From an uncultured SAR86 cluster bacterium (GTDB taxonomy: Bacteria; Pseudomonadota; Gammaproteobacteria; Magnimaribacterales; Magnimaribacteraceae), in the NCBI GenBank assembly GCA_902628375.1, contig CACOMS010000009.1:1-44960 (forward strand): a stretch of 44,960 nt of DNA, written 5' to 3'. The position numbers and the translations under genes were made by a program. The notes beneath the pieces were generated by a model that saw only the letters and a program-made list of their open reading frames with translations, did no database searches and was not told where the DNA came from. How positions within the stretch are numbered: the stretch's first letter is position 1; each line of letters starts with the position of its first letter. This document shows, piece after piece, positions 28,961 through 44,960 of the stretch.

Positions 28961-30375
28961 TCAACAATTTTTATTAATCTCCCAGGTAAAAGCTTGCCAT
29001 CTGGGTAATCTCCATTAAGTAATCTAAGTTTAGACTCAGGATCATATGAAATTGGACTTTTATCAGACAAGGAAGAGTATGTGTCTCCTTTTTTGACTTT
29101 ATAGATCTTTATCTTAAGAGATTCTGCTAGTTTTAACTCATTCCTCTTTAAATCTCTAAAACTTGAAATGATTGAATTGAATTCATTAACAAAATTAGAA
29201 ATTTGTAAATCTTCTGATCTAGAGGTAAATAGAAAAATTTCCTTTTTTCTGAATATTACCGCTACCAAAGCATCTTTTCCTCTGAACTTAACAGTAGCAG
29301 AATAGCCTTCATAACCTGAAGAAGAGATTGTCTTTCCGTTTTGAATTTTTTGATTAGTTATTCGTTGTAAATATTGCTTAGGAGTTTCTACCCTTGATTG
29401 ATCGTCCATAGAAACTTTTACTTGAGCTTTTCCATTTGGAGAAATGAATAAAAGGTTATTCTTATTATTTATCATCTCCCACTTTCTAGGGGCTGAAAGA
29501 AATATCCCTAGATCTGCATGATAAAAATTATTCCCCCTCCTTACTCCCTCTCTTGAAGAGTCTCCATAAACCAAACCATTCAAAAAACTAAATAGTCTGT
29601 CTTCTTTTGAAGCTTCATTTGTGAATATCTCATTTTGTTTAACTACCTCTTTTAATCGTTTATCGTTTTCGGGATGGGTAGCAAAAACTCCATGATAAGT
29701 TTGGGTAGAAACCCCTCTTCTTTTAGACACCTCAACAGAATACTCTTCTTGGGCTTTCAAAACCCGTAAGGCGTTCATCATTCCATTGCCGGAATAACCT
29801 GAAATAGATGAGTATTGAACAGCTAGACCATCAGCTTCTAACTCCATGTCCCTTCCATAACCTGATATTAAAGCCCCACCCATCAAATAGGATAGATCAG
29901 CTGCTGTGCTTCCATATTCTTGACCGATAATGGTGGTGAGTATTTGAGTTGCTTGAGATTGTGAATACTGCCTAACACTATGTCTCGCCGTTACATGACC
30001 TATTTCATGTGCAAGAACAGCTGCGAGCTCTTCCTCAGAATTAAAATGAGCCAGTAGACCTCTGTAAATAAATATATGTCCACCTGGTAAAGCAAAGGCA
30101 TTTACAGCAGGGTTATCTAAAACTATAAATCTATATATTAGATTGGGTCTATGGCTTCTCTTAGTTAAATCATCTCCTAGCTCTTGAATGTATCTCTGTA
30201 AAGATTCATCTTCATACTTTCTTTCCTGTTGTAGGACTTGTTTAGCTACATTTCGACCCAAGCTAATTTCTTGTTCTTCCGAGATTAAAACAAAGTCAGG
30301 GTTGCCTGTTACCGGGTTTATGGAACAACTAGATAAGAATAAGAATAGAACTAATAAAGATAAAATCTTAGTCAT
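28957..30375 (-). CDS. M48 family zinc metalloprotease lipoprotein (BepA-like), LysM-like C-terminus
   Basis: Periplasmic zinc protease probably concerned with outer-membrane quality control. From the ATG at 30375 it is 472 residues: lipoprotein signal with lipobox LSSC (Cys17), M48 domain with HEIGH (123-127) and third zinc ligand Glu178 in ELEAD, a middle domain of uncertain fold, and a C-terminal YKVKKGDTYSSL...GRLIKIVD segment resembling a LysM peptidoglycan-binding unit. The open frame extends ten codons upstream of this ATG, but the lipoprotein signal begins here. The ATG lies inside the patatin stop region (8-base overlap), so both are translationally coupled. No TPR repeats of E. coli BepA are evident. 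Its end overlaps a convergent SDR by 4 bases. Confidence 0.88.
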   Translation of the reverse strand: MTKILSLLVLFLFLSSCSINPVTGNPDFVLISEEQEISLGRNVAKQVLQQERKYEDESLQRYIQELGDDLTKRSHRPNLIYRFIVLDNPAVNAFALPGGHIFIYRGLLAHFNSEEELAAVLAHEIGHVTARHSVRQYSQSQATQILTTIIGQEYGSTAADLSYLMGGALISGYGRDMELEADGLAVQYSSISGYSGNGMMNALRVLKAQEEYSVEVSKRRGVSTQTYHGVFATHPENDKRLKEVVKQNEIFTNEASKEDRLFSFLNGLVYGDSSREGVRRGNNFYHADLGIFLSAPRKWEMINNKNNLLFISPNGKAQVKVSMDDQSRVETPKQYLQRITNQKIQNGKTISSSGYEGYSATVKFRGKDALVAVIFRKKEIFLFTSRSEDLQISNFVNEFNSIISSFRDLKRNELKLAESLKIKIYKVKKGDTYSSLSDKSPISYDPESKLRLLNGDYPDGKLLPGRLIKIVD

Positions 30376-31279
30376 TAGACAATAAACGTAAAGTTCTATC
30401 TTCAAAAATATTCCACCATGAATTGCCCATATCTATAATTCTTTCAATATTTTCTTCTGAATTATCGTCCAGTTCTGGATTTACATCTCCAAGTTCAGAA
30501 TTTATACGAAGATAATTTTCACCCAAAATACCTTCGGCTAGCTCATGATCTAAGCTACTTTCTGCCATCAATCCAAATAAATTATTTCTTAACCAACCTA
30601 TTGTTCCCCAAGACTGGGACTCCTCTCCAGGTATAGGTTTTCTGTCTAAACCAGTACCAACACTCAATACTTTAAAATTCGTATCAGGATAGACCTTTTT
30701 AGCTTCAATAAATCCATGCAAAGATGGGTGATTAGCTACTATAGCTCCATCGATAAGATATCTATTTCCTACTTTAGCAGTTGGATAAAATGTCGGCGCT
30801 GCAGAGGTTGCGCTTGCTACTTCTATTACCGAAAGATGTTTGTCCTTAAAACTGCTTAGAATAACTGGTTTTCTAGATTGAACGTCATAGCAAACTGCGC
30901 ACACGGGCTTATAGGAATCACCCATCTTTTTCTCTTTAAAGTAATCTGTAAGTAGATCGATTTTTCCTTTGTCCTTGTATTTGGAGCCTTGAAGAAGACC
31001 CAGGGTGCTTCTCAGTGTATTTGCTCTTTTGTCCCAGATAGAATCAGAAAGTATTTGATTTAAGTTTTCTTGTGACCAAAACTCTATTAATTCAGAAGAA
31101 TTCATCTTATTGACAGCCATAGCAAGGCAACTTACCGCTCCTGCTGAGGTGCCGATAAAGAAATCAAATTTTTCATAAATAGGAGTTTCTAAGGCTTTTT
31201 CCAAAGAATTTAGAAAAGTTACAGTAGCTAAAGCTCTAACTCCACCTCCGTCCAAGGAAAGAATGTACTTTGTTTTCAT
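30368..31279 (-). CDS. Patatin-like phospholipase
   Basis: Serine lipase of the patatin family, 303 residues, with the complete Ser-Asp dyad: oxyanion loop DGGGVRA (10-16), nucleophile Ser45 in GTSAG, and Asp177 in the DGA motif (YLIDGAIVANHPS). There is no signal peptide, so it should be cytoplasmic or membrane-associated and act on phospholipid or acyl-lipid substrates. It overlaps the M48 lipoprotein gene by 8 bases, suggesting joint envelope maintenance. Cytoplasmic patatins are also effectors of CBASS defence, but no nucleotide cyclase or accompanying gene is present, so a defence role is unlikely. Confidence 0.9.
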   Translation of the reverse strand: MKTKYILSLDGGGVRALATVTFLNSLEKALETPIYEKFDFFIGTSAGAVSCLAMAVNKMNSSELIEFWSQENLNQILSDSIWDKRANTLRSTLGLLQGSKYKDKGKIDLLTDYFKEKKMGDSYKPVCAVCYDVQSRKPVILSSFKDKHLSVIEVASATSAAPTFYPTAKVGNRYLIDGAIVANHPSLHGFIEAKKVYPDTNFKVLSVGTGLDRKPIPGEESQSWGTIGWLRNNLFGLMAESSLDHELAEGILGENYLRINSELGDVNPELDDNSEENIERIIDMGNSWWNIFEDRTLRLLSND

Positions 31280-31392
31280 TCGGTTGTACTAGTTTAGAGA
31301 TATATTTTACTTCTTTAATGTTCTTAATAAAGGCTTATTCTATATAGCTTTTCTAGACAAAATAATGTCATTTGATACAGTAACTAAGGTGT

Positions 31393-31419
31393 TTTTGTTT
31401 TTATACAAAATATTGGGGA
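31393..31419 (+). promoter_or_regulatory. Leader hairpin plus Shine-Dalgarno of the second TonB receptor
   Basis: TTTTGT (31393-31398) and ACAAAA (31405-31410) can pair around a 6-base loop, directly followed by TTGGGGA (31413-31419), 5 bases before the ATG at 31425. The first receptor gene has the same order of hairpin, TTGGGGA and ATG. The stem is weak; a role in controlling ribosome access is inference. Confidence 0.4.
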
Positions 31420-31424
31420 AATAT

Positions 31425-34382
31425 ATGAAAAATTTATTTAAATCTTTATTGATTTTACCTCTTCTATTTTCTTTCTTTGTACTAGGTGATGAAGAAGAAA
31501 CTGTAGAAGAAGTTGTTGTTGTAGGATCTCAAATCAAAGGTGCTAGCATTTCAGGAGCCCTTCCTGTTACCGTCTTAGACTTTGGAGATATTGAAGCAAT
31601 AGGCGCTGATGGTGGAGATGAGTTATTGGAAAGCGTAGCTGAACAAGGACTTAATTTCTTTAATGAAACTGAGAATGCTTCTGGTGGTGTCAACTCTGCT
31701 AGAGGTGATATGGGAGCTTATAACTTACGACATATGGGTGTAGGAAACACTCTGGTTTTAATGAATGGCAGAAGGCTAGTTAATTCACCAGGATATCAGA
31801 CGGAACTTCTGGGTGGAGACTATGTACCTACGGTAACTGTAAATTCAACTTTAGTTCCAACTTATGGTCTTGACAGGTTAGAGATTCTTAGAGATGGAGC
31901 TTCTGCTATCTATGGATCAGAAGCGATTGCTGGAGTTGTTAATAACGTTATGCAAGATGACTATGAAGGTTTTGTAATGAGAATAAAAAGAGGTTTTTAT
32001 GATCATTTTGCAGCAGATGATGTAACTATTTCAGGAAAATATGGAGCTGATTTCAATGGAGGTGCTACGAATGTGAGTATTTTCTTTGATATTTATAACA
32101 GAGATAGAATCAGAGCTGCTGAAGATCCTAGATGGGGAAATTCTGATCATAGACAATGGATACCAGCAGACTCGCCTTGGTCAGGAAGCACATCGTTCAG
32201 AAATACAAGTACCAACTCTCTTTATGGTCAGTTTGATATGGTAAGTTCTTCAGAACATGGTGGAGAGACTTACAATCATGTTTGGACAGACTCCAATGGT
32301 GAGTTTGAAATTTTTCCTCTAGGTGATGAAAGATGTACAAATAGAGGAAACCCTTTATTTGATACGGGCTTTGGAACATGTATTGCACCAGACGGAAATG
32401 GAGTAGAAAGATTTAATCTTTGGGGTGGAACTGACTATAGGTCTGACCTAGAAAGAAAAAATATTTTTGTTTTCATAAATCATGAAATGGAAAATGGAAT
32501 GGAGTCATTCACCGAACTAGGATGGTATGAATCTGACTCAAATCTAACAAGACATCCTTCTTACGCGTTTAGTTCATCTAAGCATAGAGTTGGACCAGAT
32601 AATTACTGGCTAAACCAACTGACAGTAGATGTTGATGGTGTTGCCACTCCTATATTTGCAGGAAAAGAGCTATATATAGACAACTATCGTTATGCTGAGG
32701 TTCCTAGAATTGTAGACGTACACAAAACCACTTATAGATTCCTTCAAGGATTTAGAGGAACTAGAGGAGATTGGGATTGGGAAACTGCTTTTGTTAGGTC
32801 AAAAGCTAAGGCGGATGACGTCACACATAACAGAGTCTCAAATACTTTGTTAAAAGAAGCTCTATATGACAACACTTCTGCTGCTTATAACCCATTCAGT
32901 GCAGGTGTTGATTCAAATATTGAAAGAGCCCTTGTGGACGTATATAGAAAAGGATTTAGTACTCTCACCATGGTAGATTTTAAAACTACAAATAGTAATT
33001 TATTTGAGTTGTCTTCAGGCCCTGTTGGCTTCCTAGCGGGTGCTGAATTTAGACAAGAAGAAATTCAAGATGATAGAGATCCTAGATTAGATGGAACAAT
33101 AGATTATTGTGACTATGAAAATGATTGCTATCCTCTAGTGAGTGATGTTCTTAATTCTAGTCCAACTGGAGATGTTGGAGGAAAGAGAGATGTTACTTCA
33201 ATCTTTGCTGAATTACAGATACCTCTTGCCGATAATGTGGATATGCAAATAGCACTTAGAAGTGAAGATACTAGTGATGCAGATGGTTCAACTGTAGGAA
33301 AGGTTGCGTTGGGTTGGGATGTTACTGATTGGATGTTGTTAAGAGGTTCATTTTCTACTGCATTTAGAGCACCTAATATAGTTCAAATAAATGAAACTAT
33401 AGTTGTTAGGTCAGGTAGTAGACATGATTATACAATCGAGAGAGTTCAACAACTTCTAGGCCTTGATGATGGTGATATAGACTCTTATTACACAATACAA
33501 AGACAAGCCACTGGAGCAGAAAACTTAGAGCCAGAGGAATCTGATAATACATCTTTTGGTTTAGTACTTAATCCTGTAGACGGATTAACTATAACCGCTG
33601 ATAAATGGTCTATAGATAAGGAGAAAACTATTGGGTTGTTTGGAAGAAATAATCACACAGTTCTAGACATGATGCTTAGATTCCAAGCAGGTACTTCTGA
33701 TTGTGCCAACACAGTAGGTAATCCAGCTGTTGTAAGGGAGGCTCCAGACGATGGAGATCTTCAATACTTTGCAGATGCTGGAATATGTCCTATAGGAGTT
33801 ATCAAGTACGTAGCTGATAACTACGTTAATTTAGCCGACAGAACCATTGAAGGTTATGACATTGGTGTTTACTACAATGTAGAAACTGATTTTGGGGAAT
33901 TTGACGTAAGATATATTGGTAGTCATATAGATAAATTTGAACAGAAGCCAGGCGGTGATTTTTCTGCCCTTCAAGCTGCTCAGGATAGTGGAGAGATACC
34001 TCTTTCAATTCCGATTGATGGTTTTGGAGATCTTCTAGGTCAAAATGGAAATTACGACAACAAGCACTACGCAAGAGTCTCTTGGAAAAAGGGCAATTGG
34101 GGAGCTACCCTTTCAGGCATTAAGAAAGGTGAGTTCTATCAAAGTTCTTTAACTCTTAGTGACGGAACAAGATATGTAATACCTGAAATGACAACCTACA
34201 ACTTATTGGTTGATTACAGATTTACAACTCCAAGATTTGATAAAAGCGCAAGAATTAGGTTTGCAGTTAAGAATCTAGATGACGAAAGAGCTCCATTAGC
34301 TGATCGTTATTATGGATACTTTGCTGATGCGCACCAAGACTTGGGAAGGAACTACTATATTGATTTGAGAATAAATCTTTAA
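31425..34382 (+). CDS. TonB-dependent outer-membrane receptor
   Basis: Second TonB-dependent receptor, 985 residues from the ATG at 31425. A signal peptide (KNLFKSLLILPLLFSFFVLG) is followed by acidic residues, a TonB-box-like EEVVVVGSQI, the plug (about 45-185, with NLRHMGVGNTLVLMNGRRLV and LEILRDGASAIYGSEAIAGV), and the barrel (RTSF/AFRAPN-type strand near the middle, LEPEESDN, ending YYIDLRINL). The last residue is Leu, not the usual Phe, though the penultimate pattern still suits BAM. Six cysteines form three close pairs in loop regions. An in-frame ATG 20 codons upstream would put 20 residues before the signal peptide and is rejected. A terminator follows, then a DASS transporter gene. 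Substrate unknown. Confidence 0.93.
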   Translation: MKNLFKSLLILPLLFSFFVLGDEEETVEEVVVVGSQIKGASISGALPVTVLDFGDIEAIGADGGDELLESVAEQGLNFFNETENASGGVNSARGDMGAYNLRHMGVGNTLVLMNGRRLVNSPGYQTELLGGDYVPTVTVNSTLVPTYGLDRLEILRDGASAIYGSEAIAGVVNNVMQDDYEGFVMRIKRGFYDHFAADDVTISGKYGADFNGGATNVSIFFDIYNRDRIRAAEDPRWGNSDHRQWIPADSPWSGSTSFRNTSTNSLYGQFDMVSSSEHGGETYNHVWTDSNGEFEIFPLGDERCTNRGNPLFDTGFGTCIAPDGNGVERFNLWGGTDYRSDLERKNIFVFINHEMENGMESFTELGWYESDSNLTRHPSYAFSSSKHRVGPDNYWLNQLTVDVDGVATPIFAGKELYIDNYRYAEVPRIVDVHKTTYRFLQGFRGTRGDWDWETAFVRSKAKADDVTHNRVSNTLLKEALYDNTSAAYNPFSAGVDSNIERALVDVYRKGFSTLTMVDFKTTNSNLFELSSGPVGFLAGAEFRQEEIQDDRDPRLDGTIDYCDYENDCYPLVSDVLNSSPTGDVGGKRDVTSIFAELQIPLADNVDMQIALRSEDTSDADGSTVGKVALGWDVTDWMLLRGSFSTAFRAPNIVQINETIVVRSGSRHDYTIERVQQLLGLDDGDIDSYYTIQRQATGAENLEPEESDNTSFGLVLNPVDGLTITADKWSIDKEKTIGLFGRNNHTVLDMMLRFQAGTSDCANTVGNPAVVREAPDDGDLQYFADAGICPIGVIKYVADNYVNLADRTIEGYDIGVYYNVETDFGEFDVRYIGSHIDKFEQKPGGDFSALQAAQDSGEIPLSIPIDGFGDLLGQNGNYDNKHYARVSWKKGNWGATLSGIKKGEFYQSSLTLSDGTRYVIPEMTTYNLLVDYRFTTPRFDKSARIRFAVKNLDDERAPLADRYYGYFADAHQDLGRNYYIDLRINL

Positions 34383-34443: not shown

Positions 34444-35889
34444 ATGAATCTTATTAAAAACAATCCAGGATTTATATTAGGTCTCGTAGCCTTTTTAATT
34501 ATTCTATTTCTTCCGGCTTCTGAAGGGTTAAACCCACAAGCTCAAAGAACTCTTGCCCTATTTGTATTAATGGGAACCTGGTGGGCTACAGAAGCCGTAC
34601 CTGTTGCCATAACAGCATTAGTTCCTTTAGCTCTTTTTCCTTTGTTTGGAATATCAAGTATTCAAGAAACGGCTGCTCCTTATGCCAACAAGATCATCTA
34701 TCTCTTTTTAGGCGGGTTCCTTATAGCTACAGCGATTCAGAAATGGAACTTGCATAAGAGAATAGCATTGTTTGTGCTCCAATATGCTGGATCAAGTGGA
34801 AGGACTATGATTTGGGGCTTTATGCTATCTGCAGCTCTTATCAGCATGTGGGTTATGAATACTTCAACTACGATCATGTTGCTTCCTATAGGTTTAGCTG
34901 TAGTGAGTGTTGTTAAAGAAACCGTTAAAGATCTAACTGAGGATGAAGCAGATAATTTTCAGCTAGCCCTTCTTCTTGGAATTGCATATGGCGCAACCAT
35001 AGGTGGAATGTCAACTCTAATAGGAACTGGCCCCAATGGTATCTTAGCTGCCTTTATGGAAGACAATTACAATCTACAAATCAGTTTTTCTGACTGGATG
35101 AAAGTTGGTGTCCCTTTAAGCTTTACGATGCTGCCTTTAAGTTGGATGATTCTTACCAAATTTGTATTTCCAATTTCATTTAAGACTTCTGTTGAAACAA
35201 AAAACTTACTTAATGAAATGAAAGAAGACATAGGTCCATTTCAAGGGGCAGAATTAAAAATATTTATAATTTTCTTTTTAACTGCCATGGGTTGGATGTT
35301 TAGAACTTTATTAGACGATATAAGTTTCCTAAATGGCCTTTCAGATTCTGGAATAGCTATGATTGCTGCTTTAGCGTTATTTCTTGTTCCTAACGGAAAT
35401 AAGGAAAATCCTGGACCTTTACTTGAATGGAAGGATGCAGAACAAAATGTACCTTGGGGTCTTTTAGTATTATTTGGAGGAGGCTTAAGTCTAGCTGCAG
35501 CAGTCCAAAGTACTGGTTTAGCCATCTGGATAGGAAATTTAATTCCTACAGGAATTAGTCTAGTTATTATTGTTGTGATGGTGGTAACTCTTATCCTGTT
35601 TCTTACTGAGCTAACTTCAAATATGGCAACTACTGCAACTTTCTTACCTGTAGTAGCTGCTATTGCTATTCAATCTGACTTTAACCCTTTGCTAGTAACA
35701 GCTGCAGTAGCTCTCTCATCCAGTTGTGCCTTTATGCTACCGGTAGCTACACCACCTAATGCAATAGTATTCGGTTCTGGGTTAATTAGAGTTCCGCAAA
35801 TGGCGAGAGCTGGCTTTTCTCTAAATATTTTGGGAATAATTGTTGTGTCTTTAGTCTCAATCTTTTTAATACCAGCATTCTTGCTCTAA
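34444..35889 (+). CDS. DASS (SLC13) family sodium:dicarboxylate/anion symporter
   Basis: Inner-membrane transporter of the divalent anion:sodium symporter family, 481 residues with about 11-12 hydrophobic segments. The two family signature regions are visible: WVMNTSTTIMLLP (Ser-Asn-Thr-type substrate loop, first repeat) and LTELTSNMATTATFLPV (second repeat), along with GGFLIATAIQKWNLH. Known members import succinate, citrate or sulfate; which one applies here is not clear. Its ATG comes 20 bases after the receptor terminator, and no strong Shine-Dalgarno or promoter is seen, so read-through from the receptor may contribute. Its last 4 bases overlap the convergent gamma-glutamyltransferase gene. 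Confidence 0.9.
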   Translation: MNLIKNNPGFILGLVAFLIILFLPASEGLNPQAQRTLALFVLMGTWWATEAVPVAITALVPLALFPLFGISSIQETAAPYANKIIYLFLGGFLIATAIQKWNLHKRIALFVLQYAGSSGRTMIWGFMLSAALISMWVMNTSTTIMLLPIGLAVVSVVKETVKDLTEDEADNFQLALLLGIAYGATIGGMSTLIGTGPNGILAAFMEDNYNLQISFSDWMKVGVPLSFTMLPLSWMILTKFVFPISFKTSVETKNLLNEMKEDIGPFQGAELKIFIIFFLTAMGWMFRTLLDDISFLNGLSDSGIAMIAALALFLVPNGNKENPGPLLEWKDAEQNVPWGLLVLFGGGLSLAAAVQSTGLAIWIGNLIPTGISLVIIVVMVVTLILFLTELTSNMATTATFLPVVAAIAIQSDFNPLLVTAAVALSSSCAFMLPVATPPNAIVFGSGLIRVPQMARAGFSLNILGIIVVSLVSIFLIPAFLL

Positions 35890-37565
35890 TTGCTTTCGCT
35901 TAATGCACTAGCTCCAGGTCTTCTGGTATCCGGAACTCCATACAAGTTCCCATCTTCAATAAATATAGCTTGTACGCTACCCATTGCTAAATTTGAATCT
36001 TTTATTGTATGACCCAATCTCTTTAATATATTTGTGGTATCTCTACTGAAACCAGTTTCAAGTTCTAATTCTTTGGCATATCTTTGATTTATTCTTGGTG
36101 CGATAAGCGCTTCTGAGTAGCCTAATTTATGATCTATTACATTAGATATAACTTGTGAGATGACATTTGGTATCCTACCTCCTCCTGGAGAGCCTAAAAC
36201 CATAGTTAAATCTCCTTCTTTATTAAATACTAATGTTGGCGTCTGAGTGCTGATCATTCTTTTCCCAGGTTCTAACTTATTAGCTTTTGCTTCTGGTCTT
36301 CTTGAAAAGTTTCTCATTTGGTTATTCAGTAAGAAACCGCCTTTTTCTACGGTAACTCCTGAACCAAAAGAAGACCCTAAAGTGTAGGTATTCGATACAG
36401 CGTTACCATAAGAATCTACTACAGAGTAATGAGTGGTGTCTGGACTCTCATCCATATTGATAAATATTCCATGACTTAAATCTTTATAATCATTAGCTTT
36501 CCTACTATCTATCATCTTAGCTCTCTTTTTTGCATATTCTTTGCTTAAAAGATTTTTTACTGGAACTTCTACATAGTCTGGATCTCCATGATATTTATCT
36601 CTATCAGCCCAGGCTAGCTTCATGCTCTCTGCCATATAATGAATAGACCTAGAAGAATTATGTCCAAATCTCGAAACTGGAAAGCGCTCTAAAATATTGA
36701 GGGTTTGGAGCATTACCAGCCCTCCACTTGCTGCGGGTGGCATAGATACAACTATTGATCCTCTATAGTTGATCATTAAAGGAGTTCTTTCTTTAGCCTG
36801 GTAAGATGCTAAATCTGATTTTCTAATGAAACCTCCATTTTTCTTTGAAGACTCTACTATCCAATCAGCTATCGTTCCTTCATAAAACTCTTTGGCACCT
36901 CCTGTACTTATAAGTCTTAACGTTTTTGCTAAATGAGGTTGCTTAAAAATACTTTTAACTGGAAGAGCTTCGCCATCTATAAAATATTTATTTTTACTTT
37001 CTGAATTCAGTAAAAGTGAAGACTCTCCAAACTTCAAGGCCTGATTTAAATCATAAGTGACCTCAATCCCCTCTTCCGCTAACCTTATAGCAGGTTCCAT
37101 AACTTCTTTTAAACTTAGAGTTCCTCTTTCAGAGTGTGCCTTTAGAAGGCCGGCGACAGAGCCGGGAACTGCTGTTACTTTATGGCCATATCTTATGGTT
37201 TTTCCATTGTTACCTACGACGTCTGAACTTTTAGCTATTGCTGGGGCTGCAGACCTATAGTCGATAGAAGAAATTTCACCTTTATTCTTATCGTAAATCA
37301 ACATGAATCCACCGCCACCTAAATTCCCAGCTCTAGGCAAAGTAACTGCTAGTGCGAAACCAATTGCAGTGGAAGCATCAACAGCATTCCCTCCTTTTTT
37401 GAGTATTTCATAACCAACACGTGTCGCATGAAAATTTTGGGTAACTACCATGAATTCCTTTCCTATTTCAGGATGGATTCTTTCATCGTACCTAAGGATA
37501 GACTCTGCTGAAGATAGTGCCCCTATAAATAGAAGTATTAGAGTATTTATGAGCTTTTTCTTCAT
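35886..37565 (-). CDS. Gamma-glutamyltransferase, lid-loop-less divergent copy
   Basis: Periplasmic Ntn hydrolase made as a precursor that cuts itself before a threonine. It is 559 residues: a signal peptide (KKLINTLILLFIGALSSAE), the large-subunit region with GGNAVDASTAIGFAL and PRAGNLGGGGFMLIY, and the small subunit starting at predicted nucleophile Thr377 in DTTHYSVVD. Compared with its neighbour and E. coli Ggt (by eye), the E. coli Asp433 position is Asn (QMRNFS instead of EMDDFS), the lid loop is about nine residues shorter, the Ser-Ser pair reads Ser-Thr (ISTQTPT), and DYRE reads DYRS. Autoprocessing looks intact, but the preferred substrate may not be a free gamma-glutamyl group. It starts 3 bases after the neighbour's stop and overlaps the DASS gene by 4 bases at its end. 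Confidence 0.87.
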   Translation of the reverse strand: MKKKLINTLILLFIGALSSAESILRYDERIHPEIGKEFMVVTQNFHATRVGYEILKKGGNAVDASTAIGFALAVTLPRAGNLGGGGFMLIYDKNKGEISSIDYRSAAPAIAKSSDVVGNNGKTIRYGHKVTAVPGSVAGLLKAHSERGTLSLKEVMEPAIRLAEEGIEVTYDLNQALKFGESSLLLNSESKNKYFIDGEALPVKSIFKQPHLAKTLRLISTGGAKEFYEGTIADWIVESSKKNGGFIRKSDLASYQAKERTPLMINYRGSIVVSMPPAASGGLVMLQTLNILERFPVSRFGHNSSRSIHYMAESMKLAWADRDKYHGDPDYVEVPVKNLLSKEYAKKRAKMIDSRKANDYKDLSHGIFINMDESPDTTHYSVVDSYGNAVSNTYTLGSSFGSGVTVEKGGFLLNNQMRNFSRRPEAKANKLEPGKRMISTQTPTLVFNKEGDLTMVLGSPGGGRIPNVISQVISNVIDHKLGYSEALIAPRINQRYAKELELETGFSRDTTNILKRLGHTIKDSNLAMGSVQAIFIEDGNLYGVPDTRRPGASALSESN

Positions 37566-37568
37566 CTT

Positions 37569-39308
37569 TTAATCTACAGGTATGGCACCAGAATTGGGCC
37601 TTCTAGTGTCTGCAGTTCCATAATAATAGTCTTCATCTTTGATAATTGCATGAACACTTCCCATCGTTCCTGAAGACCTAATTGCATGACCCTTTTGTTC
37701 TAGTATTTTAAGTGTGTCTGGACTATATCCTTTTTCCATAAATAAAACATCTGGAAGCCACTGATGATGAATTCTTGGGCTATTAACAGCTTCAGCTATA
37801 TTCATATCATGGACCAGAACATTGATAATCACCTGAAGAACGGTAGAAATAATTCTAGATCCACCGGGACTTCCTAAAACCATATAAGGTTCGTTATTCT
37901 TTAAAATTATAGTTGGAGTCATTGAACTAAGAGGTCTTTTTGATGGTTCTATAGCATTGGCTTCAGCACCAATAAGTCCATAAGCATTAGGCACACCAGG
38001 CTTTGATGAGAAATCATCCATTTCATTATTCATCAAAATACCAGTTCCAGGTATGGTAATTCCTGACCCAAATGAAAAATTAAGGGTGTAAGTGTTCGAT
38101 ACTGTATTTCCATTTGAATCCATAACAGAGAAATGAGTTGTGTCTGGACTTTCAAAAGGAATTGGATTTCCCGGTAAGATTTCTTGTGACGGAGTGACTT
38201 TATCTTGTGAAATCTCAGCTAATAGATTTTTGGCATATTTCTTATTAGTTAAGCCTTCTATAGGAACGTCTACAAAATCATTATCTCCTAGATATTTACT
38301 TCTATCCGCATAAGCTCTTTTCATAACCTCAGAAAGCAAATGAATGGAATCTGCTGAACCAAAACCCATTTCCTTGATTGAAGTGTTTTCTAGCATATTA
38401 AGCATTTGAATTATATGGATACCTCCTGAGCTACTTGGAGGCATTGAAACTATTTTGTAATCGTTGAATGAACCTATAACCGGATTTCTAAGAGACACTT
38501 CATAAGAAGATAAATCTTGCATAGAAATGATGCCACCATTCCGATTCATTTCATCTACTATTTTTCTAGCTATATCTCCTTTATAAAAGGCAGATGGACC
38601 TTCATCTCTTATCTTCTTTAAACTCCAAGCTAAATCAGGAAGTCGCATGATTTCCCCAGGAAGATATGCATCTCCTGATTTTTTGTAATACGCCTTTTTA
38701 GTGGCCGAGTTTCTTTGTAATCTAGCTTTATAGCTATTAGTTACAGATGATAGATCATGAGGTACGACAAATCCTTCAGCTAGATCTATAGCAGGTTGAA
38801 TTACTTCCTCCCAAGACATTGATCCATAGTTATCTAGTGCAAATTTCATACCAGCTACGGTTCCAGGAACTCCAGCTGAAAGTAAGGAAAATCTAGCTTT
38901 AGTTTTATCGTAGTTGCCATTGGAGTCTAAAAACATATCTCTAGAAGCACTTAAAGGAGCTCTTTCTCTATAATCTATAGCAACTGTTTTTCCTTCCTGC
39001 TCAAGGTGAATGAGCATAAAGCCTCCTCCTCCTAAATTTCCAGCTCTAGGTAAAACTACAGCTAAAGCAAAAGAAGTTGCTACTGCTGCATCTACTGCAT
39101 TTCCACCTTTAGATAGTATGTCTGCACCAACCCTACTGGCTATCTCTCTTTGACTCACCACCATACCCTTTGATCCTATCACTGGATGAGAGATGGATTT
39201 GTAATCAATAATAGGAGGTTTCTTGTCTGCAATTGCTAGAGTGCTAAGGAACAAAAAACTTAGGATAAGGATTTTCTGAAATATTTTATGCAAAGAGTTA
39301 AGAATCAC
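37569..39308 (-). CDS. ggt: Gamma-glutamyltransferase, canonical copy
   Basis: Periplasmic enzyme cleaving gamma-glutamyl bonds in glutathione and gamma-glutamyl amides. It is 579 residues with a signal peptide (ILILSFLFLSTLAIA), GGNAVDAAVATSFAL, IDYRERAP containing the substrate-binding Arg, and the predicted autoprocessing and nucleophilic Thr390 in DTTHFSVMD (E. coli Thr391). The small subunit carries EMDDFS, the full lid-loop region (GVPNAYGLIGAEANA) and RPLSSMTPT with the oxyanion Ser-Ser pair, then LGSPGGSRI. The start is probably GTG at 39308, inside the end of a 41-codon ORF, which overlaps it by 11 bases; no separate Shine-Dalgarno is visible, so translation is likely coupled. The neighbouring copy downstream is divergent at exactly these substrate residues. 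Confidence 0.92.
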   Translation of the reverse strand: MILNSLHKIFQKILILSFLFLSTLAIADKKPPIIDYKSISHPVIGSKGMVVSQREIASRVGADILSKGGNAVDAAVATSFALAVVLPRAGNLGGGGFMLIHLEQEGKTVAIDYRERAPLSASRDMFLDSNGNYDKTKARFSLLSAGVPGTVAGMKFALDNYGSMSWEEVIQPAIDLAEGFVVPHDLSSVTNSYKARLQRNSATKKAYYKKSGDAYLPGEIMRLPDLAWSLKKIRDEGPSAFYKGDIARKIVDEMNRNGGIISMQDLSSYEVSLRNPVIGSFNDYKIVSMPPSSSGGIHIIQMLNMLENTSIKEMGFGSADSIHLLSEVMKRAYADRSKYLGDNDFVDVPIEGLTNKKYAKNLLAEISQDKVTPSQEILPGNPIPFESPDTTHFSVMDSNGNTVSNTYTLNFSFGSGITIPGTGILMNNEMDDFSSKPGVPNAYGLIGAEANAIEPSKRPLSSMTPTIILKNNEPYMVLGSPGGSRIISTVLQVIINVLVHDMNIAEAVNSPRIHHQWLPDVLFMEKGYSPDTLKILEQKGHAIRSSGTMGSVHAIIKDEDYYYGTADTRRPNSGAIPVD

Positions 39309-43708: not shown

Positions 43709-44960
43709 TTAAGATTTATTTTTTTTAAGTATCTTGCCTGAGTAAGAAGAAATGCGCCATCCATCAGGATCCTTTATTCTTTCTGGAGCAGGAGTCAAGT
43801 CCACTTCTTTTCCATCTAATATGACATACTTAATCAATTCTTTTTTTCCTAAGATACTTACATCTTTTGAAGGATCACCATCTATTACTAATAAGTCAGC
43901 TTTAAATCCCGGGGAAATTAAACCTAATGTATCTTCTTTTCTCATGGCTTTTGCTGCGTTTTTAGTAGCACAAGTTATAGCTTCTAATGGTGTCATCTTG
44001 AGCTTATCAACAAAAACTTCTAGTTCTTTGTAATGCCAATCTCCATATGGCGTTACAGAAAATCCACTTTCGCTTCCACAAATAAAAGGAACTCCAGCAT
44101 CAAATGCTTTTCTAAATATTTCTATATTGTCATCAATCTCTTTCTCAAAAATAGCCTTATAGTCTTTTGATGCATTCATTTCTTCTGCGTAATCAATTAA
44201 ATTGGCTTGAAATGTAAAAGTGGGTACTAAAGGGACATTTTTCTCTAGCATTAATTCCAGTCCTTCTTCATCCATGTAGGTTCCGTGAAGGATCATATCC
44301 ATTCCAGCTAACATAGCGTCTTTTAGACTTGGGCCACCTCTACAATGTCCTACAACTGGTATTCCTAATTCATGAGCTGTATCGCAAGCTAATTTCAGTT
44401 CATCTCGACTCCAAGCTTGCAACTCGCCTTCATATTCTTGTCTAGGCACCATTCCTGTCACATGAATTTTTATCCAATCAACACCCATTTTGATCTGCCT
44501 TCTTATTTCAAGAACAATTTCGTCTCTGCTTGTTACGACTGCGCCATATCCCCTCTTTCCTTCATCAGGGATTAATCTTCCAGCTGTACCTCCTGCAGAA
44601 GTTATTAAAGCGTTACCCCCAACAGCCATTCTAGGTCCAGGAATAATTCCACTTTCTATTGCATCCCTTAAATCAACTCCGACGCTATATAGACTATCTG
44701 CGTCAAAAAAACTGGTAACACCTGACTGAAGAACTTTTAAGGCATTCGTTCCTGCGATAATTGAAGCAAGACCTTCTCTTCTGTGAAAAAAGAGTTCGTC
44801 ATTTGAAACTGGTTCATCGAAGCTTATATGACAATGCGCATCAATTAAGCCAGGCATGACTGTCTGACCCTTAAGATCTATAGTTTCTACCTTATTTTTT
44901 GGAAGCTCGGAGCTATCTTTGTGAACAGCCTTAATTTCACCATCCACAATATGAATATGC
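43709..44960 (-). CDS. Amidohydrolase family metal-dependent hydrolase (5' end outside window)
   Basis: Cytoplasmic metal-dependent hydrolase of the imidazolonepropionase/prolidase-like group, acting on amide, cyclic amide or dipeptide bonds. The frame is open to the window edge (HIHIV before the GTG at 44947), and family proteins begin with a short strand before DGEIKAV, so some N-terminal residues lie outside; at least 417 codons are inside. Metal ligands visible: HxH in GLIDAHCHI, Lys in WIKIHVTG, His in VVGHCRGG, His in LHGTYMD. In the last motif GSESGF replaces the usual GTDxGF, i.e. Glu for Asp (about residue 293 counted from the GTG). It leads an MFS transporter gene, gap 24 bases. Confidence 0.87.
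   Translation of the reverse strand, partial: HIHIVDGEIKAVHKDSSELPKNKVETIDLKGQTVMPGLIDAHCHISFDEPVSNDELFFHRREGLASIIAGTNALKVLQSGVTSFFDADSLYSVGVDLRDAIESGIIPGPRMAVGGNALITSAGGTAGRLIPDEGKRGYGAVVTSRDEIVLEIRRQIKMGVDWIKIHVTGMVPRQEYEGELQAWSRDELKLACDTAHELGIPVVGHCRGGPSLKDAMLAGMDMILHGTYMDEEGLELMLEKNVPLVPTFTFQANLIDYAEEMNASKDYKAIFEKEIDDNIEIFRKAFDAGVPFICGSESGFSVTPYGDWHYKELEVFVDKLKMTPLEAITCATKNAAKAMRKEDTLGLISPGFKADLLVIDGDPSKDVSILGKKELIKYVILDGKEVDLTPAPERIKDPDGWRISSYSGKILKKNKS

Follow-up and report, generated by a model that had tools for sequence, protein, structure and literature searches.

A SAR86 gamma-glutamyltransferase homologue of an Asn433-type clade with an altered amino-group pocket and a linked TonB-dependent receptor

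We analysed a pair of gamma-glutamyltransferase (GGT) genes in a 44,960-nucleotide window, namely contig CACOMS010000009.1 (C9 in our set) of the SAR86-type genome GCA_902628375.1, which is 67% complete. The second gene of the pair, copy 2 (35886..37565, minus strand; 559 residues), encodes a GGT-family enzyme with Asn at the position of the glutamyl-binding Asp433 of Escherichia coli Ggt (EcGGT). It belongs to a separate clade of such enzymes, which are usually encoded next to one particular TonB-dependent receptor. On the basis of its pocket residues, we consider it slightly better than an even bet (roughly 55%) that copy 2 is an exported, self-processing and active hydrolase of the GGT fold, acting on gamma-linked amides that have no free alpha-amino group.

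Substrate-site residues of copy 2

Residues are numbered as in EcGGT, whose sequence was aligned with both copies. As described in PMC6769717, EcGGT holds the alpha-carboxylate of the donor through Arg114, Ser462 and Ser463, its alpha-amino group through Asn411, Gln430 and Asp433, and the oxyanion through Gly483/Gly484. Copy 1, an ordinary D433-type GGT (37569..39308, minus strand; 579 residues, GTG start, NNEMDDFSSKPGVPNAYGLIGAEANAIEPSKRPLSSMTPT), presents all the EcGGT donor-binding residues except for Glu at 430, a Glu that is also found in most of its neighbours. Copy 2 (NNQMRNFSRRPEAKANKLEPGKRMISTQTPT, with DTTHYSVVD) reads G411, Q430, R432, N433, S462, T463, Q464, G483, G484 and G485. 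The two genes are separated by 3 bases, with copy 2 following copy 1 on the same strand; judged by eye, both products seem to start with a Sec signal peptide, and no other GGT was found in this incomplete genome.

In the copy's own numbering, and always on the minus strand, Thr377 (36435..36437) corresponds to Thr391, the nucleophile and self-cleavage site, and Arg104 (37254..37256) to Arg114, the alpha-carboxylate ligand. Gly397 (36375..36377) takes the place of Asn411, with loss of the alpha-amino contact. By alignment, Gln416-Met-Arg-Asn419 (36309..36320) covers positions 430-433, with Q430 as in E. coli, D432R and D433N, and Ser439-Thr440 (36246..36251) matches Ser462-Ser463. As far as the sequence goes, copy 2 has the GGT hallmarks of a Thr391 nucleophile after a cleavable linker and a GG oxyanion hole, and at Asn411 and Asp433, which give transfer-type GGTs their grip on the alpha-amino group, it has G411 and N433.

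Both copies are recognised as GGTs. EcGGT (2e0w) was matched with E values of 4.8e-183 by copy 1 and 1.1e-124 by copy 2, and the respective TIGR00066 scores were 620 and 493 bits (cut-off 357.85); for copy 2 this match and that to PF01019 (512 bits, cut-off 27) involve the whole protein. The structure model of copy 2 (predicted local distance difference test, pLDDT, 87.5; predicted template modelling score, pTM, 0.89) fits the E. coli precursor 2e0w with Z 52.7 and a root-mean-square deviation of 1.8 Å over 488 aligned residues, in agreement with the alignment at the backbone level. Thus, copy 2 shares the fold, Thr391, Arg114, Ser462 and Gly483/Gly484 with E. coli Ggt (2e0w/2dbx) and with ordinary gammaproteobacterial GGTs, and differs from E. 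coli Ggt by N411G, D433N, S463T, M464Q, S485G, the missing lid tyrosine and the link to a TonB receptor.

Then, we classified 209 distinct GGT open reading frames (ORFs), comprising relatives from GTDB and the family, order and class loci. Position 433 was Asp in 109, Asn in 90 and another residue in 10; the set was partly picked by likeness to copy 2, and these proportions say nothing on abundance. Among the 90 N433 rows, Thr391 and Gly483/Gly484 were present in all, Arg114 in 89 (Lys in the other one), Ser462 in 89 and Thr463 in 88. The positions of the amino-group site read Gly (82) or Ser (8) at 411, Gln (89) at 430 and Asn (90) at 433, compared with Asn (105) or Glu (4) at 411 and Glu (104) at 430 in the 109 D433 rows. 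The carboxylate clamp and the catalytic residues therefore stay, while charges and Asn411 are lost from the amino-group site; by alignment, all three alpha-amino contacts differ from those of neighbouring GGTs. In the window's family, N433, G411, T463 and Q464 recur in 27/27 orthologues of copy 2, which rules out chance.

A sequence-only reading of this DNA had pointed to the motif letters of the two copies and to the absence of Asp433 from copy 2, and the ORFs and the EcGGT alignment bear out both. It had also described the Ser pair as lost; in fact Ser462 is kept (89/90 N433 rows), and the only change, Ser463 to Thr, is conservative. The N411G change, by which the lid Tyr444 loses its partner, had escaped it.

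An old clade under constraint

An alignment of copy 2 and its relatives served as query against GTDB contigs. The best 80 of 210 relatives were kept, and these belonged to SAR86, Cellvibrionaceae, Woeseia, Sphingomonadales, Hyphomonadaceae and Caulobacteraceae. In the class sample, N433 occurred in 1/61 ORFs (60 loci of 89 match rows). Four of 398 Pseudomonadota genomes, that of the window among them, matched a strict DNA motif for NNQM(x)NF; the Cellvibrionaceae form, NNQINNF, escapes the motif.

The careful tree was built on 57 rows, hand-picked from 103, after columns 411 and 428-466 had been excluded. It placed its 32 N433 rows on one side of a branch with support 99/96, and in 100% of the 200 bootstrap trees a single change was enough to explain the trait. 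The same split was obtained (support 91) in a quick tree of 103 rows. This indicates, on sequence grounds, that copy 2 belongs to an old separate clade spanning Alpha- and Gammaproteobacteria. In both trees copies 1 and 2 of the window fall in different clades, and the pair was therefore brought together rather than duplicated in place. Local tandem duplication, the origin assumed when the two genes were first read as diverged duplicates, is ruled out, and their pairing is secondary.

The median omega (ratio of nonsynonymous to synonymous substitution rates) was 0.085 across 23 pairs of copy 2 and 0.069 across 25 pairs of copy 1, considering in both cases pairs with synonymous divergence (dS) < 1.5. 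Copy 2 is therefore under strong constraint, and we discarded the possibility that it is a pseudogene.

Linkage to a TonB-dependent receptor

In the window, copy 2 converges on a DASS-family anion symporter gene (34444..35889, plus strand; TIGR00785 299.8 bits, cut-off 198.6), with stop codons overlapping by 4 bases, and the DASS gene is preceded by a TonB-dependent receptor gene (31365..34382, plus strand). To the N433 ORFs with Thr463 we applied a linkage test that required 4 kb or more of flanking sequence on each side and a partner within 6 kb; 59 of the 88 qualified by their flanks. The control consisted of D433 ORFs whose locus has no N433 gene; of these 77, 63 had adequate flanks. A TonB receptor was near 59/59 N433/T463 ORFs versus 1/63 lone D433 ORFs. 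For DASS the values were 40/59 versus 0/63 (Fisher p 5e-18, uncorrected for kinship within one clade); a further N433 locus, L117, also has a DASS gene, which the overlap rule of the count missed. Receptor and DASS lie upstream on the same strand in 27 loci, and the order is convergent, as in the window, in 23; the receptor is downstream on the same strand in seven, DASS is divergent in three, and others differ again. Given these arrangements, the linkage survives several gene orders. Copy 1 accompanies copy 2 in 25/27 loci of the window's family, on the same strand in 25/25, and the remaining two loci stop at the contig end.

The partner is one specific receptor. We used as queries the receptors beside the N433 GGTs of Pseudoteredinibacter (L101) and Hyphomonadaceae (L124), and in 10/10 SAR86 genomes the best match of both was the receptor adjoining the N433 GGT. 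The scores were 381-501 bits for the L101 query (next best at most 113) and 290-464 bits for the L124 query (next best at most 96). The partner receptor is therefore orthologous, and not just any TonB receptor. The window shows both features of the clade, since its copy 2 sits on the common branch (99/96) and the orthologous receptor adjoins it. Among PDB relatives of the receptor, matches covered the plug only.

Two further comparisons are coherent with this association. In families f2 and f4, whose genomes carry the receptor and N433 GGT elsewhere, the ordinary GGTs have either partner in 0/14 cases (12 with full flanks). In the sister family f3, 9/9 genomes (91-97% complete) hold a single GGT, of type D433, and in the same 9/9 a receptor of this kind is absent (57-89 bits vs 589-1032). 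This co-absence implies that the receptor and the N433 GGT are kept or lost as a unit. The tie to DASS is looser: all nine f3 genomes keep a DASS gene (475-524 bits) without receptor or N433 GGT, which weakens its candidacy as an obligate partner, and in the four f3 loci read it adjoins the likely counterpart of the window's patatin gene, again without the receptor. One apparent receptor without an N433 GGT (G041) was set aside, as its contig ends 72 bases past the receptor.

By sequence, the DASS protein of the window is nearest to NaCT, NaDC1, NaDC3 and VcINDY. Its first motif reads MNT for SNT, as in 51 of the 52 DASS ORFs, from a total of 63, in which this motif could be recognised. In Pseudoteredinibacter (L101:5848-12753, and also L098-L100 and L106), the N433 GGT, the TonB receptor and an ordinary GGT run in one direction, and the N433/D433 pairing therefore also exists far from SAR86. 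L101 also has, just upstream, a phytase-domain gene and a second TonB receptor.

Predicted donors and alternative readings

We infer the donor class of copy 2 from residue logic and from mutants of other GGTs. The enzyme would hold the gamma-acyl group and a free alpha-carboxylate through R114, S462 and T463, and would cleave through Thr391, with G483/G484 as the oxyanion hole. The charged alpha-amino group would no longer be gripped, as the Asn411/Glu430/Asp433 of neighbouring GGTs is replaced by Gly411/Gln430/Asn433, and the Asn411-Tyr444 gate is lost from both sides. From this altered pocket follows the prediction that the donors are gamma-linked amides with the alpha-amino group missing, as in glutaryl compounds, or substituted, as in N-acyl-gamma-glutamyl compounds or internal gamma-glutamyl bonds. 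The acyl group would pass to water and hardly be transferred. The conjugate may be imported into the periplasm by the one particular TonB receptor and hydrolysed there by copy 2, after its putative export and maturation; in most SAR86 lineages with both genes, DASS may take up the released acid. Copy 1 would act alongside as an ordinary GGT. The new specificity that the sequence-only reading had proposed thus retains part of its basis: substrate-position changes in a catalytically intact, selected enzyme point to another donor, whereas the lid, the Ser pair and the duplication no longer speak for it.

Mutants and natural relatives provide a framework for this prediction. In EcGGT, D433N abolished transpeptidation, kept 82% of hydrolysis and gained glutaryl-7-aminocephalosporanic acid acylase activity, and the same position is Asn in class IV cephalosporin acylases (PMC8062742). 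The Bacillus subtilis enzyme (BsGGT) is offset by 12 from EcGGT, as given by the D445/D433 pair (PMC8062742) and supported by the BlGGT alignment, and its E423, E442 and D445 therefore correspond to 411, 430 and 433. The triple mutant E423Y/E442Q/D445N increased acylase activity 963-fold (PMC8062742). In the N433 clade the three engineered positions vary as well, but with Gly/Ser rather than Tyr at 411. Its members are thus natural enzymes varying where residues were hand-engineered for a glutaryl-cephalosporin acylase. Pseudomonas SE83 Acy I (P15557), a class IV acylase, shares Asn433 with copy 2.

A broader proposal, which we regard as possible and still doubtful, is that the N433 GGT and the TonB receptor together make up an uptake cassette, so far unrecognised, of Alpha- and Gammaproteobacteria, abundant in SAR86, for gamma-amide conjugates without a free alpha-amino group. 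As substrates one might speculate on folyl-poly-gamma-glutamates, phytochelatin-like peptides, and N-acyl-gamma-glutamyl or glutaryl amides. If this proposal holds, the "cephalosporin acylase" side activity engineered at the same three positions would have a natural role. D433N GGTs are already known, as class IV acylases and as the Helicobacter bilis paralogue Bgh1; among the matches listed for SAR86 or TonB receptors with GGT, the open-licence literature did not contain the cassette, nor did we meet there a conserved N433 clade tied to a TonB receptor. In the portion of the SAR86 comparison that concerns it, ggt is mentioned for glutathione only, at the glutathione-to-cysteine step (PMC11582366). 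Should the N433 clade act on other donors, this annotation would be partly wrong for SAR86, which is among the commonest ocean bacteria, and the TonB receptor would gain a testable enzyme partner. Further literature is found in PMC11421214, PMC4568574 and PMC3751524.

Several points weigh against the prediction of donors without a free alpha-amino group. All the linkage statistics are drawn from a single clade, whose members are phylogenetically non-independent. DASS is loose, being not found at the alphaproteobacterial and Cellvibrionaceae loci and present alone in f3. Bgh1, the one natural D433N paralogue with tests in the literature consulted, failed to mature and had neither GGT nor cephalosporin-acylase activity (PMC3279353), and the hydrolysis retained by EcGGT D433N (PMC8062742) makes an ordinary donor possible.

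This last point leads to the main rival, a realistic possibility at clearly less than even odds: copy 2 would still be a gamma-glutamyl hydrolase for glutathione and gamma-glutamyl peptides, specialised only towards hydrolysis and towards a larger substrate that the TonB receptor brings in, with copy 1 in charge of transpeptidation or housekeeping. Coherently with it, all copies, and all clade members tested, score as plain gamma-glutamyltransferase above the TIGR00066 cut-off, and SAR86 cannot reduce sulfite, ggt having been proposed to supply sulfur from glutathione (PMC11582366). However, all the alpha-amino contacts differ from those of neighbouring GGTs, a change that is fixed clade-wide and of no obvious benefit to an enzyme for free gamma-glutamyl donors, and BsGGT D445N lost 90% of activity (PMC8062742).

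The remaining alternatives involve the lid loop or the activity of the enzyme. The segment at EcGGT 435-457 has 14 residues in copy 2 (SRRPEAKANKLEPG; 36264..36305, minus strand) versus 23 in copy 1, nine fewer, as the sequence-only reading had estimated, and this shortening stands in the alignment to EcGGT. It is found in this sequence alone: the loop has 21-23 residues in 26/27 copy-2 orthologues of the window's family and in 87/88 clade members (N433 with T463), and its sequence in the clade is no longer like the E. coli lid. By alignment, the clade trait is a rewritten loop, the nine-residue deletion being private to the window's sequence or an assembly error. An error in this metagenome-derived contig is rather unlikely. 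The short form is seen in one genome (1/27), and the relatives searched included no other genome of this genus; against an error, the deletion is in frame, the ORF and flanking motifs are intact, and real length changes usually sit in loops.

It is improbable that copy 2 is a dead paralogue that does not mature, kept for binding or by chance. Its model would be Bgh1, also a second GGT, with natural D433N, S463T and a changed lid tyrosine, which showed no maturation, GGT or cephalosporin-acylase activity (PMC3279353). Unlike copy 2, Bgh1 lacks a signal peptide and has also lost a glycine of its GXXGG motif (Gly473Ser, Helicobacter pylori numbering; PMC3279353), which we take as an oxyanion glycine. 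The N433 rows keep both glycines, T391, and R114 or Lys in 90/90, and omega is 0.085. Least credible is the idea that lid loss opened a B. subtilis-type enzyme to polymeric or otherwise large gamma-glutamyl donors, poly-gamma-glutamate for instance: lidless Bacillus GGTs do accept large substrates (PMC8062742) and the window's loop is short, but the loops of 21-23 residues in the rest of the clade set it apart from the Bacillus-type lid-negative group, the analogy fails for the group as a whole, and BlGGT, a Bacillus example, keeps an acidic residue at 433.

Other members of the GGT family are structurally close to copy 2. The fold of the Bacillus halodurans "cephalosporin acylase" 2nlz and of YwrD-like proteins resembles the copy 2 model (Z 49.7). 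This group has RGxxF at 430-434, like a third GGT type of SAR86, and lies outside the N433 clade. The third type, with RGxxF and Tyr411, occurs in SAR86 and other gammaproteobacteria (L069:7711-9402, L070:8101-9801, L229, L232, L237, L256 and L257) and is nearest by sequence to 2nlz. LmbA and Ant6, of lincomycin and anthramycin synthesis (6j3i), are GGT-family enzymes in non-gamma-glutamyl chemistry (Z 44.5 to the copy 2 model); unlike copy 2, they cleave a C-C bond in antibiotic synthesis, with 25% identity in the structural alignment.

As for the rest of the window, a scan for promoters and terminators gave five promoter-like sites, compared with 12.3 expected from shuffles. The TonB receptor gene is adjoined by a patatin-like phospholipase gene (30368..31279, minus strand; CBASS lipase model 173.6 bits, below the cut-off of 200). 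An amidohydrolase gene (43709..44947, minus strand) resembles the Caulobacter Xaa-Pro dipeptidase model, with 221 bits, below the cut-off of 500.

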